Below, one piece after another: positions 38,505 through 62,049 of a stretch of DNA of 64,000 bases; the stretch's first letter is position 1; each line of letters starts with the position of its first letter. Under the pieces are notes generated by a model, which had not been told where the DNA came from, did not search any database, and saw nothing but the letters and a program-made list of their open reading frames with translations. The position numbers were made by a program, and so were the translations under genes. This stretch comes from an uncultured Sulfitobacter sp. (GTDB lineage Bacteria > Pseudomonadota > Alphaproteobacteria > Rhodobacterales > Rhodobacteraceae), in contig NZ_CANMQS010000001.1 of assembly GCF_947500075.1 (NCBI RefSeq), positions 310,001-374,000 of the forward strand. The letters are read 5' to 3'.

Positions 38505-38507
38505 GAC

Positions 38508-42049: not shown

Positions 42050-42172
42050 TTTGGCATCCCCTTTTCCCACCTAAACTGTGGCCCTTTCGGCCCTGTTGTC
42101 CAGAATGTTCCGACTGTGCACCTGCGGTTTCTGATGATAGCCTTGATCAGTAAAGGCAAATGGCAGAGCGAA

Positions 42173-42834: not shown

Positions 42835-44835
42835 ATGCAGAACAATGACGTCACCATAGATGGCTATCGGGAGCTCAAGGTGCCCGCCTTTGTGACAATC
42901 ACCGATGTCACGCCCCACGCCGGGGCAGAGCCGGAGTATGTCATCTGCAATGAAGCCACCGGCAAGTTCTTTCTCGCCAACCGGGTGACGGTGGAATTTT
43001 TTACCGCTCTGAAGGACACCCAGCAGGTTGCCGCAGCCCTTGTGCAGGTGGGCATGCCGCCCACGCAGGTCGGCCCGCTGCTGAAGAAACTGTTTGAGAA
43101 CGGGTTGATCACCAATCCCGGAGAAACCCACGTGTCGGACGCCGCACCGGTGGCACCGCTGGAAAACAAGCTGGTGACCGTTCGTTGGGACATACTCGAC
43201 ATTCAACGCCTGACCCACAGGCTGCGGGGCCTTGGCCGCTTTGCCTATTCCCCTCTCGGGTATGCCATCTGGGGCGTGCTTATGTTGGGCATGGCGTTCG
43301 AACTCCTCAGCAACCGGGACAAGGTTGCGCTGACGATGGCGCAGGTGTTGGAAGCCAGTTGGCAGCAATGGGCAATCTTTGCTGCGTTTTTTGTCGGGCT
43401 GAAAATTGTGCACGAACTGGGCCATGCACTGGCCTACAGGCAGATGTGCATTCAGGAAGGGGTGGAACCCGGACCAATCCGTGTGGGCATCTGCATCTTT
43501 GCGATGTCCCCCTTCCCGTTCACGGATGTGACCGGCGCATGGCGCCTGAAATCCACAGGTCGCCGGGTGATGATTGGTGCCGGGGGTATCTATTTCGAAA
43601 CCTGGGCCATGGCCGCCCTGACTTTCATCTGGGCAGAGACACAGACCGGCCTTGTGCAAACTGTGATCCTGCAGGTTGTGATTGTCGCCGGTGCGCTGGC
43701 ACTGCTGTTCAATCTGAACCCGGCGATCAAGCTGGATGGATATTTCATGCTGACCGATTACCTGCGTCGCCCCAACCTTGCGGCGCGCGCAGCGATGGCG
43801 GCGCGCAGCACGGCCGCCCGCTTGCTGGGTGCGGACCTGCCCCGCCAGCGCAGATCGGAACTGATCTATTGGCTTATGTCCTATGCCTACCGCTGGACGA
43901 TCTTTACGGGTATCTTCTGGATCTTCTACCAGATCGACCCGCGCATTGCCCCGGTTGCTGCCGCTGTTGTTCTGATAACGCTTGTGGTGCGGCCTTTGAT
44001 CAACACCGCGCGTTTTGTGCGCAAGTCCGGTGCAAGACCGCTCAAAACACTGCTGGCGGGCGGTGCGATTGCAACGATTGTGGCTGCACTGTTTATCCCT
44101 TTGCCCGGCAGGATGCTGATGCAGGGGCAGATGATGCTGTATGACACCCGTTTTGCCGAAGCGACCGAAGCAGGACAACTGCTGCATGACAGTGCCGGAT
44201 GGCGGCTGGAAAACCCGGAGCTTGATCAGCGCATCGCCCATACCAACCTGCAAGGGCTGATGTTAGAAAATCTCAAGCGCGCCAGCTTTGCTTCCGCGCA
44301 GGAACAGGCACGTCTGGCTTCTGAAATCGACGCCAATACGGATGCCAAAGCCCAGTTGGAAGCGCGCCGCGCGAAGTTGGCATTGTTCACAGACGGTGCC
44401 GCCACTTCTGACATCTGGACCCCGATGCAGGCGCGCTGGCTTGGCGGGTCATGGGTCCGACCGGCGGCCAATGATAGGCTTGGCGCAATCTCAACCGCTG
44501 CGCCGCCACATCTGCTGTTCCGGCTCGATCAATCGCGCCTCCGGCGTGACATGATGATTGCGCAAGGCACGCAAATTCAGGTGCGCGCGGTGATCCGCCC
44601 GGCATGCAGCTTTCCTGCACAAATCAGGGGTGAACTGACTTCTCTCATCGCCCGGAATGGCCTAATATATCTCAAGGCTGACGTGCCAGACCGGGAGGCA
44701 ACCTGCGCGTTCGACCTGACCCACGGCAGCGCTCTTGTCGGGCGCCTTGAAATGCCACGCTCCTCGCTCGCAGCACGTGCCTGGTTAAGCGTCGCGCGGG
44801 CCCTGCAAGATCGACTACCCCTTGAGCAGCAGTAA
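42835..44835 (+). CDS. PqqD-like / M50 site-2-protease-like membrane protein with periplasmic adaptor-like tail
   Basis: 666 residues. Residues ~1-95 resemble a PqqD-type winged helix, the fold that binds leader peptides in RiPP systems. Several spans follow, with the M50 zinc motif HELGH at 193-197 and the partner motif NPAIKLDGYF at 295-304, so the protease metal site looks intact. Further spans lie near 345-365, 370-388 and 405-422. The tail (~430-666) has a coiled-coil stretch and a beta-rich part like HlyD adaptors. It begins 95 bases after the MITE-like element and heads the run with sapC and two adaptor genes. Its role as the inner-membrane recognition or processing unit of a giant-protein exporter is inferred. 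Confidence 0.78.
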   Translation: MQNNDVTIDGYRELKVPAFVTITDVTPHAGAEPEYVICNEATGKFFLANRVTVEFFTALKDTQQVAAALVQVGMPPTQVGPLLKKLFENGLITNPGETHVSDAAPVAPLENKLVTVRWDILDIQRLTHRLRGLGRFAYSPLGYAIWGVLMLGMAFELLSNRDKVALTMAQVLEASWQQWAIFAAFFVGLKIVHELGHALAYRQMCIQEGVEPGPIRVGICIFAMSPFPFTDVTGAWRLKSTGRRVMIGAGGIYFETWAMAALTFIWAETQTGLVQTVILQVVIVAGALALLFNLNPAIKLDGYFMLTDYLRRPNLAARAAMAARSTAARLLGADLPRQRRSELIYWLMSYAYRWTIFTGIFWIFYQIDPRIAPVAAAVVLITLVVRPLINTARFVRKSGARPLKTLLAGGAIATIVAALFIPLPGRMLMQGQMMLYDTRFAEATEAGQLLHDSAGWRLENPELDQRIAHTNLQGLMLENLKRASFASAQEQARLASEIDANTDAKAQLEARRAKLALFTDGAATSDIWTPMQARWLGGSWVRPAANDRLGAISTAAPPHLLFRLDQSRLRRDMMIAQGTQIQVRAVIRPACSFPAQIRGELTSLIARNGLIYLKADVPDREATCAFDLTHGSALVGRLEMPRSSLAARAWLSVARALQDRLPLEQQ

Positions 44836-44852: not shown

Positions 44853-45614
44853 ATGGTCAAAAGACGCGCCGTTTCAAAAGCCGATAAGGAGCTTCAGCCA
44901 GATCGTTTGCCAATGCTCTACAAGACATTGGTGCCCCTGACAGCAGAGCGGCAAAGCGGGACCTACCTGTCTCCTGAACGCGACTACGCTTTTGCCAATA
45001 TGGTCAACGCGATCCCCGTCACCACGGACGAATTCGCCCCGGCCATGCGCAACTACCCCATTGTTCTGGCCGGAGGAGATGTGCCAACGCCCGTTGCTCT
45101 GGTCGGGTTTGAAACCGGGCGAAACGATCATGTGGATGCTGACGGACACTGGGCCAAGGGGGCCTATATCCCGGCCTACCTGCGGCGCTATCCTTTCGCA
45201 TACGTCAGGGAATCCAACACCTCTGATCGCAATATCCTCTGTGCGGACCTGTCCTCCGTCATTTTCGATACGAAAGGGGCACCAGACCGCGCGCTGTTTG
45301 AGGAGGACGGACAACCCGGAACGTTGCTCAAGAACGTGATGGATTTCTGCAACCGCTATGACATCGCCACCCAACGCACGCGGCTCGCGATGGAGGAAGC
45401 AATCAAATTTGATCTGATCGAAGACTCGACCGTCACAGTTTCGCGCGGCGAAAAGACCCTCAAGGTGGACGGGTTCCGGGTCATCTCTGAGGAAAAACTG
45501 CGTGCCTTGCCGGATGATGTGCTGGCAGGTCTGGCGCGCCGTGGTGTGCTGAACATCTATGCGGCGCACCACCTGTCGCTGACCAACTTCTCATCGTTTG
45601 GATCTGCCCTGTGA
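44853..45614 (+). CDS. SapC-family protein
   Basis: 253 residues. The SapC pattern runs through the whole chain: DYAFANMVNAIPVTTDEF, AMRNYPIVLAG, AYIPAYLRRYPFAYV, then DGFRVISEEKLRALPDD and the C-terminal YAAHHLSLTNF. SapC was named from the Campylobacter fetus S-layer protein locus; its molecular role is unsettled. No signal peptide or span is visible, so it should be cytoplasmic. Starts 17 bases after the M50-like gene and overlaps the next start (TGATG at 45612), so it is co-translated with the adaptors. Confidence 0.82.
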   Translation: MVKRRAVSKADKELQPDRLPMLYKTLVPLTAERQSGTYLSPERDYAFANMVNAIPVTTDEFAPAMRNYPIVLAGGDVPTPVALVGFETGRNDHVDADGHWAKGAYIPAYLRRYPFAYVRESNTSDRNILCADLSSVIFDTKGAPDRALFEEDGQPGTLLKNVMDFCNRYDIATQRTRLAMEEAIKFDLIEDSTVTVSRGEKTLKVDGFRVISEEKLRALPDDVLAGLARRGVLNIYAAHHLSLTNFSSFGSAL

Positions 45615-46408
45615 TGCGGGTGTTGGGATGGGTGATACTGGCCCATCTGGGGTGGTCTACGGCCACCCTTGCACAAAATGTCTCCGCCATTCTGGAACCG
45701 GTTCAGGTGATTGAGCTGAAACCCTCCGTGCCTGGCCGACTGGCGATGCTGGATGTTGCCGAAGGCGATGGTCTGGCGAAGGGCGCAGTGCTGGCTGCAA
45801 TGGATGCCCGCGTGCAGGAAGCGCGGGTTGCATTGGCCAAGATCGCCGCAGCTGCTGCGGGTCCGACAGATCGTGCAGATATTGTCGTCGAACAGGCGAC
45901 AGAGCTATTGGCGCGCATCACCAAGGCGCGTGCGCGCGGGGCAGCACAGCCGTGGGAAGTGCGGCAAGCCGAACAGGCCCTTTCGCTGGCCCGCGCTGAC
46001 GCCCAGATCGCAGCAGAAACCGCAACCCGACTGGGCGCACAACTGGCTCTGGAAGAGGCAACGCTGTCCGAATTCATCATGCAGGCACCGTTCAACGGCA
46101 CCGTTTTGCAGATCATCGCAGAACCCGGCGCAATCGTTGATACCGATGAGACGATACTTGAGTTTGGCAACCTCGCCCGGCTCAGCGCCACGGCCTTTCT
46201 GCCTGTGGACTGGGCGCAAAGCCTGAAGGTCGGGGACAGGGTCTCCGCCAATCTGGCAGGCGCTGAGCAGTCCAGTCTGGAACTGACCGTCGCCGCTGTT
46301 GATCCGCGTATTGATCCCGCCAGCCGCAGCGTCCGTGTCCGTCTTGAGATGGACAATCCGGACCGTCGGATCTTTGCCGGCACCACCATTGAGCTTCGGC
46401 GTCGCTGA
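45614..46408 (+). CDS. Small HlyD/MFP-type periplasmic adaptor
   Basis: 264 residues from ATG 45614, which overlaps the sapC stop. A signal peptide (RVLGWVILAHLGWSTATLAQ) is followed by a lipoyl half-motif (VPGRLAMLDVAEGDGLAKGAVLA), a helical hairpin (~55-155), the second lipoyl half (MQAPFNGTVLQIIAEPGAIV) and a beta-barrel ending TTIELRR. This is a compact membrane-fusion protein of the type that joins inner-membrane pumps to TolC-like channels. It ends without a membrane-anchor span. The next gene begins one base after its stop. Confidence 0.85.
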   Translation: MRVLGWVILAHLGWSTATLAQNVSAILEPVQVIELKPSVPGRLAMLDVAEGDGLAKGAVLAAMDARVQEARVALAKIAAAAAGPTDRADIVVEQATELLARITKARARGAAQPWEVRQAEQALSLARADAQIAAETATRLGAQLALEEATLSEFIMQAPFNGTVLQIIAEPGAIVDTDETILEFGNLARLSATAFLPVDWAQSLKVGDRVSANLAGAEQSSLELTVAAVDPRIDPASRSVRVRLEMDNPDRRIFAGTTIELRRR

Positions 46409-46409: not shown

Positions 46410-48065
46410 ATGGCCGAAGACGAGTCCCCCACATCTGCTCCTCCGCCGCAGACGCAAACCCGCGATTTGAATGATGCAATCGCCGCGTGCTTTTCCCCGT
46501 ATCTTTCCGCCCCCCCCTTCCCCCAGCGTCTGGTGGAATTGGTTGCTGCCCTGACGACTTCTCGCAGCGTCTCCCTCTGGTCCCGCCCGCGCGGGGAGGA
46601 GGACGCAGCCCTGTTTGCCAGCATCGGAAACGCGCCCGCGTTTGAAACCCTCAGCAAAGCCCTGACCGCAGAGCCGCCCACAGCCCCCCCAACAGACATC
46701 CCCCGCGCGCGGTTTGCGGACGGGTTGCTGATCGCAGACATCGCCATGCCAGACAGCAGTACCGCGATATTGGCGCTCACCCTGCCCTCCGGCGGGCCCG
46801 GTGCGCAAAGCGTGGCCTATGAACGCGTCACCACCCTTTCGCATCTCTCCTTCGCCCAGTTCCGCAATCCGGACATGGTGGAACAGGCTGCACTGACACG
46901 GGACATTAACAAGATTGCAAGCGGGGACGCCGCGCGGCTTCAGCCGATGGTCGACAGGCTTGCGCGGATATCCGGCGCTGACTATGCGGCAGCCGGGATA
47001 TGGCGCGGCGGCGATTTGAAGGACCTCACGATCTCCGGTCAGGACAAGTTTACCAAACGCGCGCTGCTCCCTGACAAGCTAAGGGGGCAGTTGCAGGAAA
47101 CAGCACGGCAATCGCTTTCTGCTCGGGCGCGCAGCTTCGCGGCCATTCCCGGTCGGGAAGACGGGCTGGCGCTGTTGCTGGAAAAACCAACGCGCGCGCC
47201 TGCCCTGTTGCCGCTGACCGCCGCCCTGTTTGCGCAAGCCGACCATGGACAAGCCCCGCGCAGATCGTTGGCGAAACTGAACCGCTATGCCGCTTTCGCC
47301 TTGGCGGTAGTTGGCATCGGGCTGATCCCCATCCCAGATGGCGTCCGGATCAATGCAACAACCGAAGCGGTCAACAAGCGGATCGTCACGGCCCCCTTCA
47401 CCACCGTTATTCAGCGCATCGACGTCGAAGAAGGTGTCCCCCTGCGCGCAGGCCAGACCATCGTGATCCTTGACACGCAAGAGATCGATATTGAGCTGAC
47501 CGGCCTCCGCTCTGAACGCGCAGCGGCTGTCATTGAACAGGAGACCGCGCGGCTGAACGCCAACGCCGCATCCCTGCGGAACGCAGAGCTTGCGGTTGCG
47601 CAGTTCAACTCCCGCATTGACCTTCTTGAAGCACGCAAAGCCAGCGCCAAAATCACGGCGCAGATTGATGGCATCTCTGTTCTGGGCGATCTGAAGCAAC
47701 GCATTGGGACCACCGTGCGCCAGGGCGATCCCCTGTTGGAGATTTCCGACCCCGCCGACGTTGCTCTGACGCTGACCATTCTGGAAGCTGACATCGGCAA
47801 GGTGGGAGCAGGAGACGCAGGTCAGTTTCGCCCGGACTTCGATCCAACGGTCACCTATGCCGCGACGGTTGCGTCAGTCTCGCCCGCAATTGATGTGACG
47901 GCTGACGTCCCCAGCGCGACAGCCAAGGCGACGTTCAATGCAGACATCGACGGGCTGCGGCCCGGCCTGACCGGACTGCTGCTGGTTGGCGACACCCGGC
48001 GACCCATCTGGCAAGTGCTCTATAACAACTTGCGCGACTGGATTTTACTGCGCGTCTGGCTGTGA
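46410..48065 (+). CDS. GAF-like / HlyD fusion adaptor
   Basis: 551 residues from ATG 46410. Residues ~20-285 are cytoplasmic and show two GAF-like halves (FPQRLVELVAALTTSRSVSLW, then LQPMVDRLARISGADYAAAGIW). A single span lies at ~293-308, followed by a lipoyl half (TAPFTTVIQRIDVEEGVPLRAG, ~327-348), coiled coil (~360-420), the second half (TAQIDGISVLGDLKQRIGTTVRQGD) and a beta domain. Standard adaptors have only a short N-terminal tail, so the large cytosolic sensor-like part is unusual. Last gene of the plus-strand run, with only 10 bases to the convergent giant-protein gene. Confidence 0.8.
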   Translation: MAEDESPTSAPPPQTQTRDLNDAIAACFSPYLSAPPFPQRLVELVAALTTSRSVSLWSRPRGEEDAALFASIGNAPAFETLSKALTAEPPTAPPTDIPRARFADGLLIADIAMPDSSTAILALTLPSGGPGAQSVAYERVTTLSHLSFAQFRNPDMVEQAALTRDINKIASGDAARLQPMVDRLARISGADYAAAGIWRGGDLKDLTISGQDKFTKRALLPDKLRGQLQETARQSLSARARSFAAIPGREDGLALLLEKPTRAPALLPLTAALFAQADHGQAPRRSLAKLNRYAAFALAVVGIGLIPIPDGVRINATTEAVNKRIVTAPFTTVIQRIDVEEGVPLRAGQTIVILDTQEIDIELTGLRSERAAAVIEQETARLNANAASLRNAELAVAQFNSRIDLLEARKASAKITAQIDGISVLGDLKQRIGTTVRQGDPLLEISDPADVALTLTILEADIGKVGAGDAGQFRPDFDPTVTYAATVASVSPAIDVTADVPSATAKATFNADIDGLRPGLTGLLLVGDTRRPIWQVLYNNLRDWILLRVWL

Positions 48066-48075: not shown

Positions 48076-51000
48076 TCACTGCTGACCCGGCACCGCTGTC
48101 TGTCCGCTGAGGAATTCGTAGTTGAAGCGATTCAGGCTCACCCCCAAAGGATCCGAGGTGCTGTTATACATGTCCTCAACCGTGCGGAACGCGATATCAT
48201 CAAAGATGTCACCGACCTTCAGGATGTCCTGCTTGCCGTAAATCTCACCCACATGGGCCGATGCGAAATAGGTCCGCGTGTTGTGCAGACCAGCCTCGTC
48301 CGGCAAGGTGGACGGGCGATCCACTGTCACACCAAGCGTGTAAGCCTCGTCAATCAACTGGGAACCAACAGTCAGCGCACGGGTCTCATTCACCAGCCGG
48401 AACGAGTCCTGCGTATAGCTGTCCAGCAATTGAACCGGCGCATCAAAGAGCACGGAGCTTTCGAACTCATCGTGGAAATCATCCTCCAGATCATGCAGTT
48501 CCACCCGTGGGAAAATCGCGATCCAATGCCCGCCAGTGTCCGCGACGATGTTGCGCACATAGTCGAGTGACCCGTCCTGCCGGTAGAGGTTGATGGTCAC
48601 GTTCGATCCCGGCTCTGCCGTGCCGGTGAAGATCGGGTCGATCAACAGAATGGGCAGGAACTGCGCATCATCAATGCCGTCAATCGCCTTGGTCTGACGC
48701 CCCTCTTCTTCTTCGGGCAAGGGCTGTGGTACGATGGTTGCCGTGTCGTCATCATCATAGCTGCGGCCATTGGGATCGTTTGCGACAGGTGTCGAGCCGC
48801 CGTCAATGGAGGCCGTATTTGAAACCGGCATCAACACATCCGTGAGGAAGCCGACAGTGACCTCCAGATCAATTGTCAGGCTCTGACCCGGTTCCAGCAC
48901 GGGGATGGTGACGATCAACGTGTCGGACCCGTTCACAGAGGTCGGCGACACCGACCCGAGCGTCGGATCGGACAGGATCGTGTTGCCGGTCAGCGTCAAC
49001 TGGAACGGCAACGTGTCGGAGACCACGGTGTTGAAAGCGGGCGACGTGGCAGTGGCATCATTGGTGACCACAAGCGTGTAGATAAACGTCTCCCCCAGCA
49101 GAGGATCCGTCTCACTTGTGGACTTCTCAACGCTGATACTTGGCTCAATCACTTCGATCGTGCCGGTATCAATCACCTGGTCGAGGGCAAGTTCCCCTTC
49201 GGGCGTCACAATCAACCCGGCGGTATTGGTCAGCTGTGTACCCTGCACGTTTGTCGCGATATCATTCACACGCGCAACGACCTCTACTGTGATCGTGTCT
49301 TCGGCGGCGGTGATCGTACCGTCAACATAGCTGTTGACCAGATCGTTGAAGGTGATCGTCATCGTCTGACCGGCGTTGGCAATGTCCGTCGTGCCAACCG
49401 TGATCTCACTGCCGACGTTGGTGACATTGGCACTCACAAACGTCAGCCCGTCAGGCAGAACATCCGTCAACACCGCTGTATCCATCGCGATCTCCGGCAG
49501 GGTCAGAACCAGTTCATAGGTGATCTCTTCCCCGATGGCTGCCCCCAGAATGCCATCGCCATCCCCATCCTCAGGCGTTTCGCCAAAGCCGGTTGAGACG
49601 GGCTCTTTCGTCAGGGTCGGCCCGGTGGTGATCACGTGATCATCGGTCACCGTCGGATAGTCCACACCAACCGGATTGCCCCCTTCGTCAAGCGGATCGC
49701 CCGGAACGCTGTCATAATCGACGCTGGCGGTATTCACGAAGGAATCCACAGGCGCAGCCGTTGCAGAAAGCGTCGCGACATAGGTGATTTCCAGCACCTC
49801 ATCCAAGGCCAGCACATCGAACGTGACGTCAAATCCGGTGCCCGTTATGCTCACCGAGCTGGGCGTCGCGGCAACCCCGTCAATGGTGTAGGACAGGGAG
49901 CCGGTGTCTAAGGTAAACGCGGCGGGCAAGACATCGCCAATCGCAAGATCAAATGCAGGACCGCCGCCTGCGGGGTCGCCATCATTCGTAATCCTCAGCA
50001 CAAATGTCGCTGGATCACCGGGATCAACGGCCAGTGGACCTGACTTTTCCAACTCCAGCAAGGGTTCAACCACGGTGACCTCTGCCGTATCCGTCACCGG
50101 CGCAAAGGGATCGTCACCAACCGGATCGACGTTGAGCGTGGCTGTATTGGCCAGGTCGTCCCCTGCCCCGGTGCCGCCATCGCTTAGCACGCGCGCGACA
50201 ACGTCGAAGATCAGCACGTCATCCGCTCCGATGGAACCGTCGGAGGCGTTGGTCATCGCCCCGAAGTCGAACGTGATCTCATTAGGGTTTGTACCGTCCG
50301 GCGTCACTATGACCGTGCCTGCCGCGCCAGTGCCATTCACATCAATCACCGTGGCAGAGACAAACGCCACCTCGTCCGGCAGCACATCGGTCAAGGTAAC
50401 ACCCTCCAGCGCAATCTCAGGCAAGGTCAGCGCATAGCGGTACGTGACCTCTTCACCAACGGTCAGTTCGAAGGGAGAGGAGCCCAGTTCACTATCCGTT
50501 TCCGTGAACTGAGAAGTGAACGCCGTCTTCTCAAGACCGGGAGAGGTCACAACGACATGGTCGTCACTGTCGGACCCCGTGCGCCCAACAGGGTTGCCCC
50601 CCGCGTCGACGGGGTCACCCGGCGCACTGTCGAAATTCACGGTGGCGGTATTGTCCAGCGTACTGGCCGCAGGGGCGGTCGCGGAGATGGTGGCAGAAAA
50701 GTCAACGCGGATCACGTCGCCCGGCGCAATCTCGTCCAGCGTCAGTTCAAAACCGCCCGTCTGACCTGTCGCAGGCGTCGTCACCGTTGGCTGTACCCCC
50801 AGAGATACGCCATTGAGGAAGACTTCAGCGGAACCGGGCACATAGGTCAGGTTCGGGTTGGCAAGTGCATCCGCAATCAACACATCAAACGCGGTGCTGT
50901 TGCCCGTGTTCACAACCTCAATTGCGTATGCAACAGGTTGGCCAAGGTCACCTGCAACTTCACCCGTCTTTGTCAGTTCCAGTGCCGGTTCAACAATCTC

Positions 51001-54000
51001 AACCGTTTCGGCCGCCGTGATCTCGGCCAGCGGCGCATCCGGCCCAATGGGATCAATGATCAACCCGGCGGTGTTGGTCAGCTGGCTATTGGGCATGGTG
51101 CCGCTGTTGGCGGGAATGTCTTCTACCCGCGCAACCACCTGAACGATGATCGCATCATTTGCCCGTGTTCCGGTTCCATCCGTATCGCTGTTCAGCACAT
51201 CATCCAGCGTGATGGTCAGCAACTGCCCCGCTTCAACAAAAGACGCCCCAGCATTGATGGTCGCAAGATCCGTGCCCCCGCCAACCGTGACCGAACCGCC
51301 AAGCCCCACAACCTCGGCCGAGACGAAGGTCAGGCCAGTTGGCAAAGTGTCCGTCAGGGTCACCGCGTCCATCGCGATTTCAGGCAGGGTCAGCACCAAC
51401 TCATAAGTCACTTCTTCACCGATTTGCAGGTCGCGGATCATATCGCCATCCGCGTCCTCCGGTGTCTGGGCAAAACTGGAGGACAGGGTCGTTTTCTCAA
51501 GCGTTGGAATGGTCGCCACGGTGAAGGAGGCATCAACCGGGGTGTAGGTTTCCTCAACCGGGTTGCCGTCTGCATCCAACGGGTCACCCGGGGCGCTGTC
51601 ATAGTCCGCTGTCACCGTGTTGGTGAAGGTTTCAAGCGGATCCGCAGAGGGGGAAAGCGTGCCGTCATAGGTGATCACAAACACATCCTGCGGGTCCATC
51701 ACATCGATGTTCAGCGTGAAAGACGCCGCAGAGAAAGTCAGTTCACCCGAACCCGGTGCATAGGCCGACCCGTTTCGCGTCACGTTGATGGTCGATCCGT
51801 CAAGCGTCATGCCCGTTGGCAGGGTATCGGTGATTTCAATGTCATATGCCGGTCCTGTGGCATCAGGTGCGATACCCGGACCGACGTTCTGGACATTGAT
51901 GGTGAACACGCCGCTTTCTCCGGGGCTCAGCGCCACGGGGCCGGCCTTGGCGATCTCAAGCTCAGGCTCGACCACCCGCACGTCCGCATCCGCTTCCGCA
52001 GCAGACAGAGGGCTTCCGCCCACCGGCACAACCGCCAGACTTGCGGCATTTGACAAGTTGTCCCCGGCATTCGGCACACCGTCATTCGTCACCCGCGCCA
52101 CGACTTCGATCGTGATGACATCATCGGCACCAATTGTTGGCGGCGCGGTATCTTCCAGATTTCGGATCCCCCCGAAATCAAGCAGGAAGTTCTGTGGCGT
52201 CACTTCCGTCAACGTGGGATCAGTCAGCGCGTTGTTGGACAGATCAGACATGTCTGACCCGAACGACACCACATTGAAGCTGACAAATTCCAGACCGGGC
52301 GCCAGCGCGTCCTCAAACACGACGCTGGACATGTCGATCTCTGGCAGGAAAAGCTCGTAGGTATAGGTGACCTCTTCCCCAATGTTGAGATCAAAGGGCG
52401 TATCGCCAAACGTGCTTGGTGTTTCAGAAAAGCTTGATGTCGTGGGGGTCTTTGTCAGGAACGGCACTGTCGCAACCGACGTATCATCATCGGCGGTGTA
52501 GTCCCGGTCATCCACGGGGTTGCCGTTTTCATCCAAGGGATCACCCGGCAGACTGTCATAGGCGACAGTGGCCGTGTTGAGGAACGTCTCCGCCTCGGGC
52601 GCATTCGCGTCCAGCAGGGCGGTATAGGTCACATCAAGTGTCACGCCGACCGGAACAGGAATCGGATCCCCGGTAACATTGTCATCCAGTTCAAAGGAGA
52701 ACCCGTCGCCTGTCTCAACAACATCCACCGAAGCGGTGATATCCACGCCGTCCAGCACGATCACAACCGAACCGGAGACAAGCGACAGCTCAGGGCTGTC
52801 AAAACTGTCCGCGACGATCACATCAAAGGCAGGCGCGGTCCCGTCATTGGTTACACTCACCGCGTAATCAACCGGGTCACCGGGGTTTACGGCGATATCA
52901 CCCGACTTGGTAACAGTCAGATTTGGCTCAACGATTTCGACGGTTTCGCTTGCTGTGGCTTGCGTCAGTGCGGGTTCCCCCTGCGGGGTGACGATCAAGC
53001 CTGCGGTGTTGGTCAGTTGCGTATTCGGCAAAGCCCCCACATTGGCCGGATCATCGTCTACGCGCGCGACGATCTGGACCGTTACCGTATCCTGCCCCGG
53101 ATCAATGGTCCCATCGACATAAGTGTTGATCACATCCGCAAGTGTCAGGGTCAGATCCTGCCCCACCACCGACAATGTCGCACCTGCGTTGATCACGGCA
53201 AGGTCGGTTTCACCGCCCACCGTGATCTCGCTGCCGATGCCTGTCACCTCTGCCGCGACAAAACTCAGCCCCGCAGGCAAGCTGTCGCTGAGCACAACCC
53301 TGTCCATCGGGATTTCCGGCAAGGTCAGCGTGAGCTCATATGTGACGGTTTCACCGATGGTGAGGTCTTGAACCGCGTCGCCATCCGCGTTTTCCGGCGT
53401 CTCAGATGTGCCGGAGGCAATCGCCGTCTTCTCCAACGTCGGTACGGTTGAGATGATGTGGCTGTCCTCAACGGGGGTGTAATCCTCCGCCACAGGGCGC
53501 CCACCTGCATCGACAAGATCGTCCGGTGCGCTGAAATAATCCGCGCTCGCGGTATTCTCAAAGGTGGTCAGCGGCCCTTCACCGGTATCCAGCGATGCCT
53601 GATAGGTCACCACAATGCTCTCCCCCACCTCAAGGAGCGCAAACTCCGCAAGGAAAGTGCTGGCATTGGCGCTAAAGCTCTCCGGCGTCAGTGTGCCGCC
53701 GCTGCCATCGGCAAACGTAAAAGAGCCGGGGTCAAGCGTCAGCCCTGCGGGCATTGTGTCTGCAATGTCCAGATCATAGGCAGGCCCTTCGGCGCCGGAG
53801 ACACCGGCATTGGTGATCACAACCGTGAATATGCCCGGCGCCCCACCGGGATTGAGCGCAAGCGGTCCTGTCTTGTCGATGGTCAGTTCCGGCTCCACCA
53901 CGCGCACATCCGCAGTGGTGGTCTGCGTGCCGAAGGGCGTCCCACTGACCGGGTCAACATCAAGCGACACGGTATTGGTCAGCATGTCCCCAGCAACCAG

Positions 54001-57000
54001 TCCGCCATCCGTGACGCGGGCAACGACCTCGAACACCAACACATCATCGGGGCCAATGGTGCCGTCAACGGCGTTGTTCATCCCACCGAAATCAAGCTCA
54101 ATCTCGTTGGGGTTCACGCCATCCGGCGTCACAACGACCGTCCCCGCTGCTCCGGTACCGTTGACGGCAACGACATTGGCCGACACGAATTCAAGCCCCG
54201 CAGGCAACACGTCAGTGGCGATCACACTGTCCAGATCAATCTCCGGCAGGGTGATCTCATAGCGGAACGTGACCTCCTCACCGATGGCCAGGTCAAACGG
54301 GGCAGAGCCCAGTTCGCTATCGGTCTCAGCGAATTGCGAGGTGAAAGGTGTTTTGCTGATCCGCGGAACGGTTGCCAGATTATGCGTATCGCTGTCGATA
54401 TCGTCCCGGCCCAAGGGTGCGCCATCTGCGTCAACAGGCTCCCCTTCGACGCTGTCAAAGACAACCGTCGCCATGTTTGTGAACGTCTCCGACGGAGGCG
54501 CGGTTGGGGAAACCTGCACATCGAAGTCCACCCGGATCACATCGCCCGGCAGAAAGGTGAGATCCTGCACCTGAAATCCCGTCGGCACCGGTGCCGCAGC
54601 TTCAATGATCGTCGGTTGTGGAACAAGCGACACACCGTTCAGGAACACCTCTGCCGTGCCGTTTTGATACAGCAGGTTGGTGTTGGCGAATGTGTCCGTA
54701 ACGTCAGCATCATAGGCAGGACCATCCCCCGTGTTGGTCACGGTGATGCTGTAGGGCACAATCTCCCCCAGATCGCCACCGACGGGGCCGGTTTTGACCA
54801 GCTCCAGTTCTGGCTCCACCACATTGATCGTTTCAGTTGCTGTTGCAGGGTCCTGAAGCGCTGTGCCGGTTCCTGGATCGGTCACAACCAGCGTCGCCGT
54901 GTTCGTCAATGCCGCCCCTTGCGTCGCGGCGGCAACATCAGCGACAATCGACGTGACCCGCACCACGATTGTCGTGTCTGTTGCAGCGGCATCGTCCGAC
55001 CCGTCGACCGCAATGGTGCCAAAGTCAAAGGTCACACTGTCCCGCGAGCCGCTGATCGTGATGGCCGGGTCCGCGTCGGTGTCATTGGCCGAAAGCCTTG
55101 TGGAGGTGTCATTCACATCGTCGCCAATCGACACCACCGTCGCGGATTGCGCCAGCAAACCCGGCGGCAGGCTGTCCGTGAGCACGATGTCTGCCGTGCC
55201 CTGCGGCACGGTCAAGATCAGCTCATAGGTGACCTCTTCGCCCACGTTAAGCTCGGCCGGATCACTGCCTGCGGCATCTGGCGTGTTCGTGTCACTGCTG
55301 GACAGGTAATTTTTGGCAACCGTCGCATCCGGTGTTGTCACCACCGCTGTATCGCTGGGGCCGGTGTAAACGCGCTCTTCCTCCGCGCCGCCTGCCGGTG
55401 TGATGGCATCCCCTGCCGGATTGGAATCGTAGCGCGCAACCTCTGCTGTGTTGGTCAGCGCGGTTGAGAACAACGCCGTGTCCTGCACAACCGCGTCATA
55501 GGTCACAATGGCCACATGCCCGGCAGGCAAATCCGGCACGATCACTTCCAGCGCGCCTGCCCCGTCGAAACTGAACGTCGGCGCGTCGACAGGCGTGAAC
55601 ACATTGCCGGATGCGTCTTGCAAAACGATTGAAACCGCGCCGCCTGCAACAACATCCGCTCCAACAACATCATCGGTCATCCGCATGTCATAGGCGGGTC
55701 CGCTGCCTTCGTTCTCAATGGTAAGCGTATAGCTGACCGGATCGCCCGCATCGGCATCGGCGGGCGTTACCGTCTTGTCGAGCGTGATGTCCGGCTCCAC
55801 CACCGTGACCGTCTCATCATCGGTGACCGTAGTGGTTCCTCCGTCGCCGTTTGTATCAGACACCGCACCGATGTTTGTCAGATCGCCGCCGTCTGCGGCC
55901 GCTGGCGTATCTGTCACCCGCGCCGTGACCCTGACGACAATCTCGTCTTTGCTGTCGATCACCGTATCGACCGAGTTGGTCAGATCACCAAAGTCAAATG
56001 TTGTCACCAAGCCCACATTCGTGCCGGAAGCCCCGACGGCCAGCAAAGAGCCGCCAATGTTATCCGCAGGTCCAGAGCCAGAAGTGACATCACCAATCCG
56101 CACAACTTCGGACGAGACATATTCAAACCCAGCAGGCAGCGTGTCGGTCAGGACAACATCACTGATCGTGCCCTCTGGCACAGTGACGGTGAATTCAAAC
56201 GTTGCAAGCTCCCCAATCCCGAGGTTTGCGCCCGTTGTCTCATCATAGCTGGTGCTGCCGGGCACGAGGCTCTTGTCCAGTTCAAGGTTCCGCGTGACGA
56301 CTTCTTCGGTATCAGACAGCGCGTATTCGCGATCATCCCCGTCCGCGCCACTGTCATCCTCCGGCGTGGAATCATAGAACAGAGCAGCCGTGTTCGGCAG
56401 CGTCAGCCCCGCAGCAACCGTAGGGCTGACCGTCGCTTCATAGCGGACAAGGACCACATCGTTCTGATCCAATCGGTCGATGAAGACCTCAAATGCGTTG
56501 GGGTCCCCACCGACATTTGTGCTCAGGTCATAATTCGTCCCATCAAAAGGTTGGGTTATGGTCGTCCCGTTAACCACCAGCGTGATGCTGCTGATATCCA
56601 ATGTGGTTTCCGGGTGCAGCACGTCGGACAGCGTCAGATCAAAAGCAGGGGCATCCCGGTTGCCGCTCGGATTGGTAATCTCCACTTCATAGCTCAGCAC
56701 ACCACCTGCCGAAGGGGAAGCGGGGCTGACGGTCTTGTCCAACGCAACATTCGGCTCAATCAGACGGACAGCGGCATCGTCCCTGTCCCTGAAACTTTGC
56801 ATGTCTGCATTTTCAAACTCGACTGACGCCTGATTGCGCATGAAATGATTCGCGCCGCCAACGTCAGCATCCCCTGCCCGCGCGAATACGCGAATTTCGA
56901 TGAAATCATTTGTCGGATCGTTGTCGGCGGTGTTTTCCAACGTGCCAAAGTCCAGCGACCAGGCATTCCCAACAGCCGTGGTGGTATCGGTCGCGACCAG

Positions 57001-60000
57001 ACCTGTGGAGGCCGTGAAGTTTCCGCCCATCGTTTCAATCTCGGCACTGATGAGCGTCAGACCGCCATTGGTGACACGGTCAGAGATGACGGTGTTGAAC
57101 ATCGTACCCTCAGGCACATCGACGCGAACAAGGAATTCGAGATTTTCACCAACGGCGACTTCGTTACCGCTCCGCCCGGTGATGTCACCATCAAATTGGC
57201 GGGCATCCAGAGACTTTTCAATCTCGATGCTTTCGGTGGTTGCGGTTGCGTCATCTTCAATCGGGCTGGTGACCCGATTCACCGGCCCGGCAGGATTAAA
57301 CGGCTGACCGTTGCCCTCAAAGGCATTGTAGCTGGTGATCCCGGCCGTATTGGTCAGCGTCGCATTGGGGCTGATGGCATCAACCACCTCAAGATCATAG
57401 GTGATGACAATGACGTTTTCGCCAGAGGTTTCATCAAACAGGGACGCCGCCCCCTGCAACGGGCCATCGTCCACCAGCAAGATGCCACCGTTGAAGATGT
57501 CATCCGGCGTGGCAGCGGTCCCATCGGGTTGGGTGAAGGCAATGACATTGCGTGCCCCATCCGTCACCGACAGGTTCAGCCCCCCCGCAGGGATCGCGAA
57601 GCCGTCCGGCAGCGTGTCCTCGACAGTGATGTTGAATGCGCCGTTCGGGGCGGTGCCCTCGTTCTCAAGTACAATGGCAAAGCTGACCGTATCGCCCGCA
57701 TCGATGTTCTCAATATCCGCATCAACGCCAATGGGCGCGCCGTCCAGCGCGCCGGAACTGACAATCCCGCTAAAGCGCGGCACGGATGTATCCGGCACGC
57801 TCACACCGCTCAGCCCGGTTGGGCCACTCAGCGATGTTTCGGGGTCGGTTGAGCTTGACCCGATCACGCCCTTGGTAATGTTCAGGTCCGGCTCCCCGTA
57901 GTTGAACAGCGCAATGGCGGTGGAGTTGATTTCCTCACCAAACGTATTGGTTTCAAAGGCGGTTACCTGGTTGGTCAACAACAGGTCCGGCGCAAATATC
58001 GCGTCCTCAACCGTTGCGGTGAACAGGATCTGGATAACGGCTTCTGCGGGCGTCGGCTCTGTGAAGGTGCCGAAGTCGAAAACCAGACCGTTGTTTGGGC
58101 CATCGGTGGTGATGGTCGGTGTCAGTCCAAGCAGGCTGGTGCTGGTCCCCGCGCCAAAATAGGCAGAGCCTGAAGCAGGCGGCGCAGTGCGGTCCACAGG
58201 CACGTCGGTCCAAGCCGTCGCCGGATTGAAATTGCCGACCACATCAAAGACCAGCTGAGGCAGGTTATCCTCAATCCGGAAGTCTTCGAACGCCGCAAGC
58301 GGGGCGCGATACTCAATCGCAAACGTGACCGTGTCGCCGGCAGCAATTACCAGATCGGCAGGCGGGGAGATATCACCGTTGAGTGCGAAAACTTCTTTTG
58401 ATTCAATACCACCGCGGGCAAGGAACACGCCAGAGCTTGCATCATCGGTGACGTTGTTGGGCGTCGTCAGCGAGGGATCACCCCCCTCAGACAGATTGCT
58501 GCGGACGTTGCCCGTGACCGTTGCATCGTTTTGCAACCGGTCCCCTTGGGAGATCATGGATTCACCTGTCCCCGTATCTTCAAACGCGCTGAGGATTGTC
58601 GCACGGTAGGTGATCTGCACCGTTGTCTGCGTGCCTGACGAGGTACCATCCCCGGCAATATCCCCTGTCAAAAGACCATCAGCAGCACCTGCCGCGATCA
58701 ACGCATCAGAGATATCCCAGGTCGACCGGGTATTCCCAAGGTTTGGATCATCTTCCACGACAGTCTCATGCGCCGTCAGGCTTGTCGGCGCCCCGGCAGA
58801 GCCGACATTGCCGCCCTCTTCGCTCACAAAGAATGCGGCGGATCCTTCCTGATAATCCCAGCCGTCCCCCAGAATATCCTCAACAACCACATCGCCGTAC
58901 GTGAAGTAGTCGGAAACCTGAATGTTCAGCGTGAATTCATACTCATCCCCCGGTGAGGGCCCCGAAGCGTTGTTGTCCACCACCAGCGCATTGGATTTCT
59001 GGATTGCGAGGGTCGAGGCTTCGATGGTGATGTTATCGCTGTCGCTGACGCGGATCTGATCATCGTCCGGGTCAATCGGGGTCCAATCCCCTTCGCCCGT
59101 AACGTCGTTCACAACGGGCGCGGGCAAGCCGGTGGTCGCGCTGTTTGTCGGTGTGGCGACATCAGAGGGGTCGTTGGACAGGTAGTAATCAAACACAACC
59201 GAGACGGAACCGGACACTTCGTCAAACGCGACAATCAACTGCTCACCCGGCTGGACCTGTGCCCCGACAGTCGGTTGCGTGGCCACAGCACCGCCAACGC
59301 CACCATTGATGCTGACGTTCCCGACGAACACCATCTCTGGCGGCAGGTTATCTGTCAGCACAAAGTCTTCCAGCGTCTGCCCTGGCGCGACGTCAACGCT
59401 CAGCGTGTATTGATAAACGTAGCTTGGGCCCGTGGCATTTTCATCGGCTGGCGCATTGCTTGTCTTGGAAACCTGCAACAATCGCGGGTCGGTGGTTTCA
59501 CTGCTGCTTGTCCCGCGTATGGCGGGATCATCCACCGGATTATCCAGCGCATCACACCCCAGCGCAAAACCGCCCAGCACGTCAAACTGCGGCATTGCGC
59601 CCAGATCAGCCTCATTGGAGAAATCAATGACCACGTCAATGTCCACCGCCGGATTGCCCGGAGAGAACGATCCGTAAGGCAGCTCAAACACTACAAGCGT
59701 GTCGCCTGCATCGCCCCCCATGATAATCAACGGATCGCCCATGGCATCAACGAGAAACGGATGCTCCACCTCTCCGTCTGCGTCAAAGGTCAGGACAGTG
59801 GTCTCAATCGGCCCCCCCAGAAAACGCGCACTGTCAAAGGTGGGGCCGTCCCCCTGCTCATCTGCGCCGGAGGTCGGGATGATCAGCTCAACGTAGGGAA
59901 CATACCCGCTCTCAGTACCTGTATTGTCAAAGGTGATGGTATAGCCGACGTCCTGCTCACCCAGTTCAACGGGCAAATCGGGGCCTGAGATCGTAACTTC

Positions 60001-60063
60001 GGGATCGGCACCGTCCAAGACGATCCGATCCTCCAATGGCTCCAGCTTGGGCATGACGGTCAT
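48076..60063 (-). CDS. Giant (3995-residue) DUF11-like repeat surface protein with LEPR-XLL-type N-terminus
   Basis: The chain starts MPKLEPLEDRIVLDGADP (LEPR-XLL-like motif at ~7-19) with no classical signal peptide. About 22 DUF11-like beta domains follow, each with a central GEEVTYELVLTLPEI-like strand and a closing LTNTATV-type strand. The C-terminal ~250 residues hold a TGTAEPGSNVTINLYRQDG Ig-like domain and a distinct tail (residues ~3830-3995) with no RTX repeats, LPXTG motif or visible barrel. Composition is acidic and nearly Cys-free. ATG 60063 has GAGG seven bases upstream. It lies 48 bases behind the TolC-like gene and converges on the exporter run. A surface adhesin or S-layer-like role is inferred. 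Confidence 0.85.
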   Translation of the reverse strand: MTVMPKLEPLEDRIVLDGADPEVTISGPDLPVELGEQDVGYTITFDNTGTESGYVPYVELIIPTSGADEQGDGPTFDSARFLGGPIETTVLTFDADGEVEHPFLVDAMGDPLIIMGGDAGDTLVVFELPYGSFSPGNPAVDIDVVIDFSNEADLGAMPQFDVLGGFALGCDALDNPVDDPAIRGTSSSETTDPRLLQVSKTSNAPADENATGPSYVYQYTLSVDVAPGQTLEDFVLTDNLPPEMVFVGNVSINGGVGGAVATQPTVGAQVQPGEQLIVAFDEVSGSVSVVFDYYLSNDPSDVATPTNSATTGLPAPVVNDVTGEGDWTPIDPDDDQIRVSDSDNITIEASTLAIQKSNALVVDNNASGPSPGDEYEFTLNIQVSDYFTYGDVVVEDILGDGWDYQEGSAAFFVSEEGGNVGSAGAPTSLTAHETVVEDDPNLGNTRSTWDISDALIAAGAADGLLTGDIAGDGTSSGTQTTVQITYRATILSAFEDTGTGESMISQGDRLQNDATVTGNVRSNLSEGGDPSLTTPNNVTDDASSGVFLARGGIESKEVFALNGDISPPADLVIAAGDTVTFAIEYRAPLAAFEDFRIEDNLPQLVFDVVGNFNPATAWTDVPVDRTAPPASGSAYFGAGTSTSLLGLTPTITTDGPNNGLVFDFGTFTEPTPAEAVIQILFTATVEDAIFAPDLLLTNQVTAFETNTFGEEINSTAIALFNYGEPDLNITKGVIGSSSTDPETSLSGPTGLSGVSVPDTSVPRFSGIVSSGALDGAPIGVDADIENIDAGDTVSFAIVLENEGTAPNGAFNITVEDTLPDGFAIPAGGLNLSVTDGARNVIAFTQPDGTAATPDDIFNGGILLVDDGPLQGAASLFDETSGENVIVITYDLEVVDAISPNATLTNTAGITSYNAFEGNGQPFNPAGPVNRVTSPIEDDATATTESIEIEKSLDARQFDGDITGRSGNEVAVGENLEFLVRVDVPEGTMFNTVISDRVTNGGLTLISAEIETMGGNFTASTGLVATDTTTAVGNAWSLDFGTLENTADNDPTNDFIEIRVFARAGDADVGGANHFMRNQASVEFENADMQSFRDRDDAAVRLIEPNVALDKTVSPASPSAGGVLSYEVEITNPSGNRDAPAFDLTLSDVLHPETTLDISSITLVVNGTTITQPFDGTNYDLSTNVGGDPNAFEVFIDRLDQNDVVLVRYEATVSPTVAAGLTLPNTAALFYDSTPEDDSGADGDDREYALSDTEEVVTRNLELDKSLVPGSTSYDETTGANLGIGELATFEFTVTVPEGTISDVVLTDTLPAGFEYVSSEVVRIGDVTSGSGPADNIGGSLLAVGASGTNVGLVTTFDFGDLTNSVDTVIDSKDEIVVRVTARVTDTPAAADGGDLTNIGAVSDTNGDGGTTTVTDDETVTVVEPDITLDKTVTPADADAGDPVSYTLTIENEGSGPAYDMRMTDDVVGADVVAGGAVSIVLQDASGNVFTPVDAPTFSFDGAGALEVIVPDLPAGHVAIVTYDAVVQDTALFSTALTNTAEVARYDSNPAGDAITPAGGAEEERVYTGPSDTAVVTTPDATVAKNYLSSSDTNTPDAAGSDPAELNVGEEVTYELILTVPQGTADIVLTDSLPPGLLAQSATVVSIGDDVNDTSTRLSANDTDADPAITISGSRDSVTFDFGTIAVDGSDDAAATDTTIVVRVTSIVADVAAATQGAALTNTATLVVTDPGTGTALQDPATATETINVVEPELELVKTGPVGGDLGEIVPYSITVTNTGDGPAYDADVTDTFANTNLLYQNGTAEVFLNGVSLVPQPTIIEAAAPVPTGFQVQDLTFLPGDVIRVDFDVQVSPTAPPSETFTNMATVVFDSVEGEPVDADGAPLGRDDIDSDTHNLATVPRISKTPFTSQFAETDSELGSAPFDLAIGEEVTFRYEITLPEIDLDSVIATDVLPAGLEFVSANVVAVNGTGAAGTVVVTPDGVNPNEIELDFGGMNNAVDGTIGPDDVLVFEVVARVTDGGLVAGDMLTNTVSLDVDPVSGTPFGTQTTTADVRVVEPELTIDKTGPLALNPGGAPGIFTVVITNAGVSGAEGPAYDLDIADTMPAGLTLDPGSFTFADGSGGTLTPESFSANASTFLAEFALLEVGESIVVTYQASLDTGEGPLTTFENTASADYFSAPDDLVDAGGRPVAEDYTPVEDSHIISTVPTLEKTAIASGTSETPENADGDAVQDLTIGETVTYELTLTLPEIPMDRVVLSDSLPAGLSFVAAEVTGIGSEITVGGETDLAVINAGATLSVVGQDLTLTLADVINTYVDGTIDPGQDTVTVQIVARVDDDPANVGALPNTQLTNTAGLIVTPQGEPALTQATASETVEIVEPNLTVTKSGDIAVNPGDPVDYAVSVTNDGTAPAFDVIVADSFDSPELSLVSGSVVIVLDGVDITASVDVVETGDGFSFELDDNVTGDPIPVPVGVTLDVTYTALLDANAPEAETFLNTATVAYDSLPGDPLDENGNPVDDRDYTADDDTSVATVPFLTKTPTTSSFSETPSTFGDTPFDLNIGEEVTYTYELFLPEIDMSSVVFEDALAPGLEFVSFNVVSFGSDMSDLSNNALTDPTLTEVTPQNFLLDFGGIRNLEDTAPPTIGADDVITIEVVARVTNDGVPNAGDNLSNAASLAVVPVGGSPLSAAEADADVRVVEPELEIAKAGPVALSPGESGVFTINVQNVGPGIAPDATGPAYDIEITDTLPTGMTLDGSTINVTRNGSAYAPGSGELTFSAASFTLNIDVMDPQDVFVITYDGTLSPSADPLETFTNTVTADYDSAPGDPLDADGNPVEETYTPVDASFTVATIPTLEKTTLSSSFAQTPEDADGDMIRDLQIGEEVTYELVLTLPEIAMDAVTLTDTLPTGLTFVSAEVVGLGGSVTVGGGTDLATINAGASFVEAGQLLTITLDDVLNSDTDGTGTRANDAIIVQVVARVEDIPANSGTMPNSQLTNTAGLIIDPIGPDAPLAEITAAETVEIVEPALELTKTGEVAGDLGQPVAYAIEVVNTGNSTAFDVLIADALANPNLTYVPGSAEVFLNGVSLGVQPTVTTPATGQTGGFELTLDEIAPGDVIRVDFSATISATAPAASTLDNTATVNFDSAPGDPVDAGGNPVGRTGSDSDDHVVVTSPGLEKTAFTSQFTETDSELGSSPFELTVGEEVTYRYALTLPEIALEGVTLTDVLPDEVAFVSATVIDVNGTGAAGTVIVTPDGTNPNEITFDFGAMTNASDGSIGADDVLIFDVVARVLSDGGTGAGDDLANTATLNVDPVGDDPFAPVTDTAEVTVVEPLLELEKSGPLAVDPGDPATFVLRITNDGDPAGGGPAFDLAIGDVLPAAFTLDTGSLSYTIDGVAATPSSVSITGTGFDVTFDVLALDEVLEITYVATLSATAAPVDSFVNTASVDYDSVPGDPLDEGGNPVGVDYPTVTDDHVITTGPTLTKEPVSTGFGETPEDGDGDGILGAAIGEEITYELVLTLPEIAMDTAVLTDVLPDGLTFVSANVTNVGSEITVGTTDIANAGQTMTITFNDLVNSYVDGTITAAEDTITVEVVARVNDIATNVQGTQLTNTAGLIVTPEGELALDQVIDTGTIEVIEPSISVEKSTSETDPLLGETFIYTLVVTNDATATSPAFNTVVSDTLPFQLTLTGNTILSDPTLGSVSPTSVNGSDTLIVTIPVLEPGQSLTIDLEVTVGFLTDVLMPVSNTASIDGGSTPVANDPNGRSYDDDDTATIVPQPLPEEEEGRQTKAIDGIDDAQFLPILLIDPIFTGTAEPGSNVTINLYRQDGSLDYVRNIVADTGGHWIAIFPRVELHDLEDDFHDEFESSVLFDAPVQLLDSYTQDSFRLVNETRALTVGSQLIDEAYTLGVTVDRPSTLPDEAGLHNTRTYFASAHVGEIYGKQDILKVGDIFDDIAFRTVEDMYNSTSDPLGVSLNRFNYEFLSGQTAVPGQQ
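49100..55300 (-). repeat. Four-domain super-repeat (~1.9 kb period) in the giant protein
   Basis: Four domain types P-Q-R-S recur in order. The P-type strand segment lies near 55210, 53330, 51390 and 49505, and the R-type segment near 54250, 52340 and 50421, giving spacings of about 1880-1940 bases. Copies are diverged at the DNA level, so this is protein-domain duplication, not fresh tandem DNA. Edges are approximate. Confidence 0.7.
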
Positions 60064-62037: not shown

Positions 62038-62043
62038 GGACAT

Positions 62044-62049
62044 CTCCCT
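62044..62049 (-). promoter_or_regulatory. Ribosome site that decides the TolC-like start
   Basis: On the minus strand AGGGAG directly abuts ATG (62043-62041), a spacing that would not work well, but lies six bases from the in-frame GTG at 62037-62035. That shortens the protein by two residues and makes the lipoprotein signal begin with the usual basic pair. Confidence 0.6.

Follow-up and report, generated by a model that had tools for sequence, protein, structure and literature searches.

The stretch of DNA analyzed here (the window: 64,000 nucleotides of an uncultured Sulfitobacter sp., contig NZ_CANMQS010000001.1, positions 310,001 to 374,000 of the forward strand) carries, at 42835..44835 on the + strand, an ATG-initiated open reading frame (ORF) of 666 amino acids (aa), whose product joins an RRE/PqqD-like leader-binding domain, a site-2 protease (S2P) and a membrane-fusion protein (MFP) adaptor domain in a single chain. 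The gene opens an operon-like run, all on the + strand, that continues with a SapC-family protein, a HlyD-type adaptor and a GAF-MFP adaptor; facing this run, a 3,995-aa giant surface protein and a TolC-family protein are encoded on the – strand, followed by an Omp85 protein on the + strand. At its start the giant has a variant “LEPR-XLL” motif, MTVMPKLEPLEDRIVLDGAD, and it is almost certain that proteases of this type pair with giants bearing LEPR-type N-termini, as is observed repeatedly across the genomes compared. The three folds of the fusion, the organization of the locus and this pairing were all obtained computationally.

The zinc site of the protease part consists of HELGH (residues 193-197; 43411..43425, +), supplying zinc ligands and the catalytic Glu, and NPAIKLDGY (residues 295-303; 43717..43743, +), supplying the third zinc ligand, D301. 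A preliminary description of this DNA had claimed that HELGH and NPAIKLDGYF (residues 295-304) are intact, and had named the loss of the zinc residues in most homologues as the outcome that would speak against it; the positions are correct, and H193, E194, H197, P296, D301 and Y303, thus HELGH ligands and D301 included, are invariant in 18/18 proteins picked on similarity alone (set A1, the window protein among them). The same six residues are conserved in 57/57 proteins of a wider set (A2), which was gathered via the pattern NP..[RK][FL]DGY, so that its D301 is not an independent observation, whereas its HExxH is. As both the HExxH motif and the distal NPxxxxDG aspartate are placed within transmembrane (TM) helices by the model, the central part is predicted to be a site-2 protease. 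Two profile results stand against these assignments: the fusion scores just 11.6 bits against Pfam M50 (PF02163), under the curated cut-off of 27.2, and has no Pfam match to a PqqD domain. The former is a weak profile score and not an absent structural feature (the paralogous protease encoded on contig C12 of the same genome, G000:C12, passes PF02163 with 28.2 bits), and, because Pfam misses the RRE and barely detects M50, the calls of both domains rest on the model and on the sequence profile described below. The top NCBIfam match is daptide_HExxH (NF041824; 2e-35, 122.7 bits), which misses its curated cut-off of 300.

The AlphaFold2 (AF2) model of the fusion (alignment of 57 sequences) has a mean pLDDT of 87.7 and a pTM of 0.74. 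Its parts were compared with known structures by running VIA-align on candidates from Foldseek; Foldseek on the whole model returned MFPs only among the 50 matches listed, and those to RRE and S2P structures were obtained with VIA-align, whose middling Z scores are common and may reflect a mere shared arrangement, above all for helical proteins, and in whose ranked list the regions outside residues 401-646 were barely covered. Residues 12-96 (42868..43122, +), predicted to be cytoplasmic, superpose on TbiB1 with its leader peptide (5v1u; Z 9.7, 2.3 A over 75), TfuB1 (6jx3; Z 8.6) and MccB (Z 8.5), i.e., several RRE entries fall on the same residues despite that caveat, and, with three strands and three main helices, the domain has the small PqqD/RRE fold as modelled. 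The PqqD resemblance that had been claimed for the N-terminus therefore holds in the predicted structure, and the first 95 residues do not fold otherwise, which had been named as a reason to abandon the claim. Residues 124-420 (43204..44094, +) form the site-2 protease core with TM helices leading toward the periplasm, of which residues 124-313 match SpoIVFB (8vjl; Z 8.6, 4.2 A over 132). Residues 421-646 (44095..44772, +) form the MacA/MexA-like adaptor domain, predicted to be periplasmic; residues ~401-646 match MacA/MexA adaptors with Z up to 11.3 (MacA), and the lipoyl/barrel-sandwich, alpha hairpin and beta barrel of a membrane-fusion protein are all there, in agreement with the adaptor-like tail previously suggested. 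An independent sequence profile recovers MacA (E 5.5e-19), the archaeal S2P MJ0392 (E 4.4e-4) and, with a weak match across its positions 16-102, TfuB1 (E 0.022). The AF2 model shows seven TM helices, an arrangement that, like the charges of the loops, puts the RRE domain on the cytoplasmic side and the MFP domain on the periplasmic side.

The three-part chain had been thought unusual for a site-2 protease; it proved to be common instead. At least 552 relatives turned up when species genomes were scanned; 80 were retained, and 76 of these 80 extend at least 388 residues past NPxxxxDGY, the other four being cut by contig ends. The relatives come from records named Planctomycetota, Verrucomicrobia, several proteobacteria and others, so that the architecture is widespread and the window gene belongs to a large family. 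The fusion of an RRE to an S2P is itself already known from daptide biosynthesis (PMC10036551).

The giant (48076..60063, –; 3,995 aa), the probable substrate of the fusion and one that the preliminary description had overlooked, is a DUF11/isopeptide repeat surface protein (TIGR04226 2.1e-128, TIGR01451 1.2e-91) with the N-terminus MTVMPKLEPLEDRIVLDGADPE, in which the LEPR-type motif occupies residues 7-20 (LEPLEDRIVLDGAD; 60004..60045, –) and takes the variant form LExLEDRIVLDGA. The matching giant in genome G063 (44.6% identity over window residues 1-3175) starts with MVQIPKFEALEDRIVLDG and has FEALEDRIVLDG as its version of the motif; giants adjoining other family proteases start alike, with MEALEPRYLLSAD in G000:C12, LEPRMMFDGA in G001:C9 and IEPLEPRLLLAAD in G138, and G063 giants with LEPRIVFDAA and LEPRLVFDGA. 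NF012209 (LEPR-8K), the model of the LEPR-XLL motif, is over its cut-off for two of six such N-termini (G000:C12, with 33.8 bits, and G138) and under it for the window and G063:C7, the remaining two being unlisted. Hydropathy reveals no hydrophobic N-terminal stretch in the window giant, which has no evident signal peptide; a signal-like stretch is likewise missing at the start of 39 giants bearing the motif, whose N-terminal parts have a best 15-residue mean hydropathy of 0.47 (the window giant) to 1.77. The motif is found within the first 120 residues of 21/51 ORFs of at least 1,000 aa vs. 6/801 ORFs of 300-999 aa, counted among ORFs with complete starts in loci of at least 9 kb that had been chosen for protease or LEPR/DUF4347 matches. 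Some LEPR-8K matches lie in exceptionally long bacterial frames (19,427 aa at G209:C115:112865-112924, –; 17,824 aa at G071:C4:103221-103274, +), and a single Phycisphaeraceae metagenome-assembled genome (G476, locus L153) has 38 LEPR-8K matches, which suggests that one exporter serves many clients there.

Co-occurrence of the protease and LEPR giants was counted in a family sample of 149 genomes and a phylum sample of 299. A loose initial criterion (any A1 match, E 1e-10) picked 79/149 family genomes, as the MFP tail matches ordinary HlyD adaptors, and was rejected in favor of counting only matches that span the protease, which left 23 genomes. LEPR-8K was over its cut-off in 24, and the family genomes divide into 18 with both, 5 with the protease only, 6 with LEPR only and 120 with neither (Fisher 5e-14); in the phylum sample, with the protease in 85 and LEPR-8K in 59 genomes, the respective numbers are 54, 31, 5 and 209 (Fisher 3e-31), i.e., 54/59 LEPR-positive genomes have the protease vs. 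31/240 of the others, both p-values being guides, as the genomes are related (153 genera in 299) and independence is overstated. Among the protease-only family genomes, G052 and G094 bear the motif variants LEERILFDA and LEQRIAFDA, and G063 and G086 have sub-threshold LEPR matches that read as real giants. Of the six LEPR-only family genomes, just G131 looks real: the matches in G030, G048, G107 and G130 are likely shadow frames (471-746 aa) amid NADH-dehydrogenase-like genes, as judged by eye, and that in G121 is an 86-aa frame; all five were retained in the family counts. LEPR-like strings (e.g., LEALEQRRLLAAD) near base 1500 of loci L173, L174, L176 and L177, amid nuo-like genes in several genomes, are a source of such false LEPR-8K matches. 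The five LEPR-only phylum genomes comprise three with frames of 64-178 aa and two that are incomplete. Of the 31 protease-positive, LEPR-8K-negative phylum genomes, 20 were read at one protease copy each, and 15 of them have an LExR-[FL]DA ORF of at least 700 aa near the protease (1,027 to over 4,300 aa); G302, not among these 15, has a giant that extends off its contig end.

Which part of the giants tracks the protease is indicated by proteins with a DUF4347 domain, present in 9/149 family genomes. DUF4347 giants of protease-positive genomes (G001, G052, G063 twice, G094) carry an LExR leader upstream of the domain, whereas those of the protease-free G026 and G075 have DUF4347 within roughly ten residues of their start and lack a leader (G090, whose start was not recovered, and G004 and G121, with weak, short matches, were left out); in these few cases, therefore, it is the leader and not the DUF4347 domain that tracks the protease. 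DUF4347 was rejected as the export signal on account of the two proteins of protease-free genomes that lack the LEPR part. The type of the motif, set by whether the LL/LF pair is followed by D or by S/A/N/T, also follows the protease: on a tree of 40 proteases it changes twice, vs. a mean of 11.7 when shuffled, and 0/500 shuffles were as low. The labels were set by hand (three of the 40, G001 C12, G065 C7 and G097, first from scores, with which later reading agreed), and in G007, G063 C25 and G094 the giant is on a different contig from the protease. Genome G001 has one protease of each motif type, each with a giant of the same type on the same contig.

As to the neighboring genes, the SapC-family protein (44853..45614, +; 253 aa; PF07277 2.1e-55) has its position matched in the Litoreibacter and G063 loci and is followed by the HlyD/RND-type (resistance-nodulation-division) periplasmic adaptor (45611..46408, +; 265 aa; TIGR01730 7e-32, HlyD_D23 2e-18) and by the GAF-MFP adaptor (46410..48065, +; 551 aa; HlyD_3 1.4e-12), made up of a GAF-like N-terminal part, one TM helix and an MFP domain. 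In the AF2 model of the latter (pLDDT 81.0, pTM 0.48 for the whole), residues 300-539 match MacA with Z 17.0 and residues 17-164 match PelD (4dmz) with Z 10.1, in a part of PelD that we take to be its GAF domain; our own hidden Markov model (HMM) of the GAF half matched just the window and its two closest loci, so that the GAF assignment rests on one model. Beyond the giant lie the TolC/OEP-family outer-membrane factor (60112..62124, –; 670 aa; OEP 2.5e-17), with a lipobox-like LTGC, and a small Omp85 protein with one POTRA match (62308..63666, +; 452 aa; Omp85 3.4e-24). Both belong to the system, because homologues of each (70% identity over TolC residues 30-669 and 55% over Omp85 residues 10-452) adjoin the matching giant in G063:C8. 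The window's genome carries the system twice: on contig C12, a protease fusion of 715 aa is accompanied by SapC, MFPs and a giant of 11,932 aa. The closest named whole-locus relative among the matches listed is an uncultured Litoreibacter (50% identity, same gene order), whose giant has a C-terminus near-identical to that of the window giant, its start being outside the stretch compared. Upstream of the fusion gene, at 36742-42070, there is a seemingly unrelated catabolic cluster (isocitrate-lyase-like, FAD monooxygenase-like and isochorismatase-like, by eye). In G063, the system is split between two contigs, one with the protease and the other with the giant, both ending near transposase-like ORFs by eye (L037 7532-8074 and L036 14771-15154, G063:C25; end of L206, G063:C8); the split may be due to an insertion or to a break in the assembly.

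The composition of these loci speaks to export. Loci with long stretches from the family sample (20) and the 80 named loci minus three with the protease cut by a contig end (77) were searched within 10 kb of the protease: a further MFP is present in 20/20 and 73/77 of them, an ABC (ATP-binding cassette) ATPase, searched for by regular expression (regex), in 1/20 and 3/77, a TolC-like gene, by a home-made HMM, in 5/20 and 24/77, and SapC in 6/20 and 3/77. Where the giant is longer, the TolC-like gene comes to lie farther off, as happens in the window. Within 10 kb of the window protease no ABC ATPase was found by regex, ABC exporters elsewhere in the genomes being outside this search, and the locus proteins scanned against Pfam and NCBIfam gave no match to an inner-membrane partner of the ABC, RND or MFS (major facilitator superfamily) type. 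The locus, with MFP and TolC components and no ABC ATPase by regex, departs from a type 1 secretion locus, in which an ABC transporter adjoins the other two; an unlinked ABC ATPase may exist elsewhere. Known tripartite systems rely on ABC, RND or MFS pumps (PMC8277102).

Taken together, the fusion is probably the inner-membrane component of machinery devoted to maturing and exporting giants in which a LEPR-type leader replaces the signal peptide. The cytoplasmic RRE/PqqD domain would bind the leader (KLEPLEDRIVLDGA of the 3,995-aa neighbor), which we consider likely, and would present it to the membrane-embedded zinc site; cutting of the leader by the S2P, probably at or just after the motif, is somewhat less assured but still favored. 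On the periplasmic side, the adaptor tail and the HlyD and GAF-MFP proteins would jointly dock the complex to a TolC-type channel, by which recognition, cleavage and export would be coupled. Export through such a complex with no ABC pump involved is a possibility to which we give slightly less than an even chance. About as likely, or slightly less so, is its generalization to a hitherto undescribed class of secretion system, in which an RRE-guided S2P fused to an MFP would replace the ABC or RND pump and would cut and export giants with open frames of up to about 19,400 residues, reading their leaders by the code of daptide leaders.

That code can be compared with the daptide one, for which the literature gives a leader motif ELExMEAP, discovery of daptides via RREs fused to a site-2 protease, assignment by the authors of leader removal to the RRE-S2P MpaP, and abolished processing by MpaB and MpaC (MpaB having a separate RRE) upon alanine substitution at Leu(-7) or Met(-4) (PMC10036551). 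The pattern phi-[ED]-x-L-E-x-R occurs in 18/19 real LEPR giants (30 loci, L155-L184, seven of them without a row, gave 24 rows, from which five shadow-frame rows, L173, L174 twice, L176 and L177, were removed, and the 19 kept include that of the protease-free G131); the giant of G097 has LEPMEPR, that of the window LEPLEDR, and two further giants have F in place of L. If the two motifs are aligned, the daptide cut after Pro(-1) would by position fall after the Arg of the LEPR-type motif.

A fusion that is confined to processing is the alternative with most to be said for it, and it is nevertheless unlikely: the giant would cross the inner membrane via Sec or an unlinked ABC exporter, the fusion would do no more than trim the leader, or release or anchor the protein, and the MFPs would be a scaffold. 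S2Ps are proteases and are not known to act as pores; RTX domains, moreover, characterize substrates of type I secretion. Such domains are also present in at least one LEPR-XLL giant on record (PMC10868602), and unlinked ABC exporters elsewhere in the genomes were outside the search scope. What tips the balance toward a dedicated export machine is the lack of a hydrophobic signal-like stretch at the N-termini of the 39 motif-bearing giants and the further MFP that adjoins the protease in 93/97 loci, vs. an ABC ATPase within 10 kb (regex) in 4/97. Also conceivable, if very improbable, is mere co-inheritance, with the protease and giant genes sharing a mobile or surface-trait island and having no direct functional contact; the system is patchy (23/149 family genomes), so that its genes are transferred or lost together, and linked genes share a tree, yet the association spans loci that are very distant from one another and genomes with several copies, motif type follows protease type, and it is the motif and not the attached DUF4347 domain that tracks the protease, if in few cases.

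The two remaining explanations assign the protease another substrate. It could be a regulatory intramembrane protease that, upon sensing by the GAF/MFP proteins, cuts an anti-sigma or signalling protein and so controls expression of the giant, in line with the alignment of its S2P part with SpoIVFB, a regulatory S2P, and with the GAF-like domain of the partner adaptor; this we regard as very doubtful, since none of the six locus proteins scanned matched a sigma or anti-sigma family, the domain at the N-terminus is similar to clamps for peptide leaders, and the pairing is with a protein motif. Hardly more credible, and if anything less so, is a maturation protease for a daptide-type RiPP (ribosomally synthesized and post-translationally modified peptide) acting on a small unannotated precursor. 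The top NCBIfam match is indeed to the daptide intramembrane metalloprotease, but its 122.7 bits are far under the model cut-off of 300; the locus proteins scanned against Pfam and NCBIfam include no match to a daptide modifying enzyme (aminotransferase, dehydrogenase or methyltransferase), and none of the intergenic ORFs of 20-130 aa between 32000 and 64000 carries phi-acid-x-[LM]-E within 40 residues of its start.

Several observations nevertheless weigh against the dedicated export machine, or against the pairing from which it is derived. Leader binding, cleavage and its site, the pore and export are all steps that we infer. The window giant itself scores 11.6 bits against NF012209, below the curated cut-off of 17, and a hydropathy plot alone gives five TM segments in the fusion, not seven. 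The protease-positive G101 has no LEPR giant in the stretches read, none of G182, G193 and G205 has a motif giant near the protease copy read, and neither protease nor giant was recovered by script in G170; conversely, a real LEPR protein occurs in G131, where the protease search gave no match, and G333 (57% complete) and G355 (86% complete) have LEPR frames and no protease. At the named loci, a motif ORF was found by regex in 18/80, two of which are unconvincing (L132, L154), and NF012209 in 25/36 of the genomes checked (a hand-chosen subset of the 80, and a one-sided check); short contigs and giants exceeding the 10-kb flanks may explain part of the low motif count. To these are added the overstated independence behind the p-values and the fact that linked inheritance alone could yield the tree result with no contact between the proteins. 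The daptide resemblance concerns a short motif and could be due to chance, the FDA-type giants retain LExR but lack phi-[ED]-x, and the alanine substitutions in the daptide leader concern the RRE of MpaB and not that of MpaP.

Two of the genomes just named deserve a remark of their own. The fusion relative of G101 (L053 8954-11017; G101:C1, about 2.43 Mb) has neighbors that resemble, by eye, an extracellular contractile injection system, which is possibly a second use of the fusion. The LEPR protein of G131 (FEALEPRLLLSAD; L191 9101-11326, G131:C186) is directly followed by a second long frame (the two measure 741 and over 3,000 aa), and the gene may be broken.

A protease-MFP system of this kind with giants was not found described in the open-licence literature searched (bioRxiv was outside its scope), and within that literature both the link to LEPR-type giants and the reading of their motif as an RRE leader appear to be new. 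LEPR-XLL and DUF4347 giants include very long bacterial proteins with no evident signal peptide and no stated export route that we found, and neither the model names nor the passages seen in the papers that use the term LEPR-XLL state a role, mechanism or partner for LEPR-XLL (NF012209), Planc_extracel (PF07595) or DUF4347. A dedicated conserved partner makes their exit from the cell directly testable and, if the reading as an export machine is true, would mean that leader recognition by RREs, a feature of small peptide natural products, also serves surface proteins that are thousands of residues long.

Compared with known systems, the window giant and its relatives, which bear the motif or its variant, join the giants defined by LEPR-XLL (NF012209, LEPR-8K), Planc_extracel (PF07595) and DUF4347. 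The protease shares with SpoIVFB and other M50 site-2 proteases the HExxH and NPxxxxDG zinc site and the multi-TM core, and differs from them in that the core is flanked by an RRE and an MFP and in that its predicted substrate is a leader instead of a regulator. The daptide proteases MpaP/DapP likewise have an N-terminal RRE fused to an intramembrane S2P and a substrate leader with a phi-E-x-[LM]-E core, and leader removal that depends on the RRE is stated for them; in the available part of their description, however, no MFP tail is mentioned, the substrates are tiny peptides, and the clusters contain modifying enzymes and ABC transporters (PMC10036551). Finally, HlyBD-TolC and MacAB-TolC resemble the system in their MFP adaptors and TolC channel and in long repeat substrates with no evident signal peptide, whereas here the inner-membrane part is an S2P and the recognition element is apparently N-terminal.

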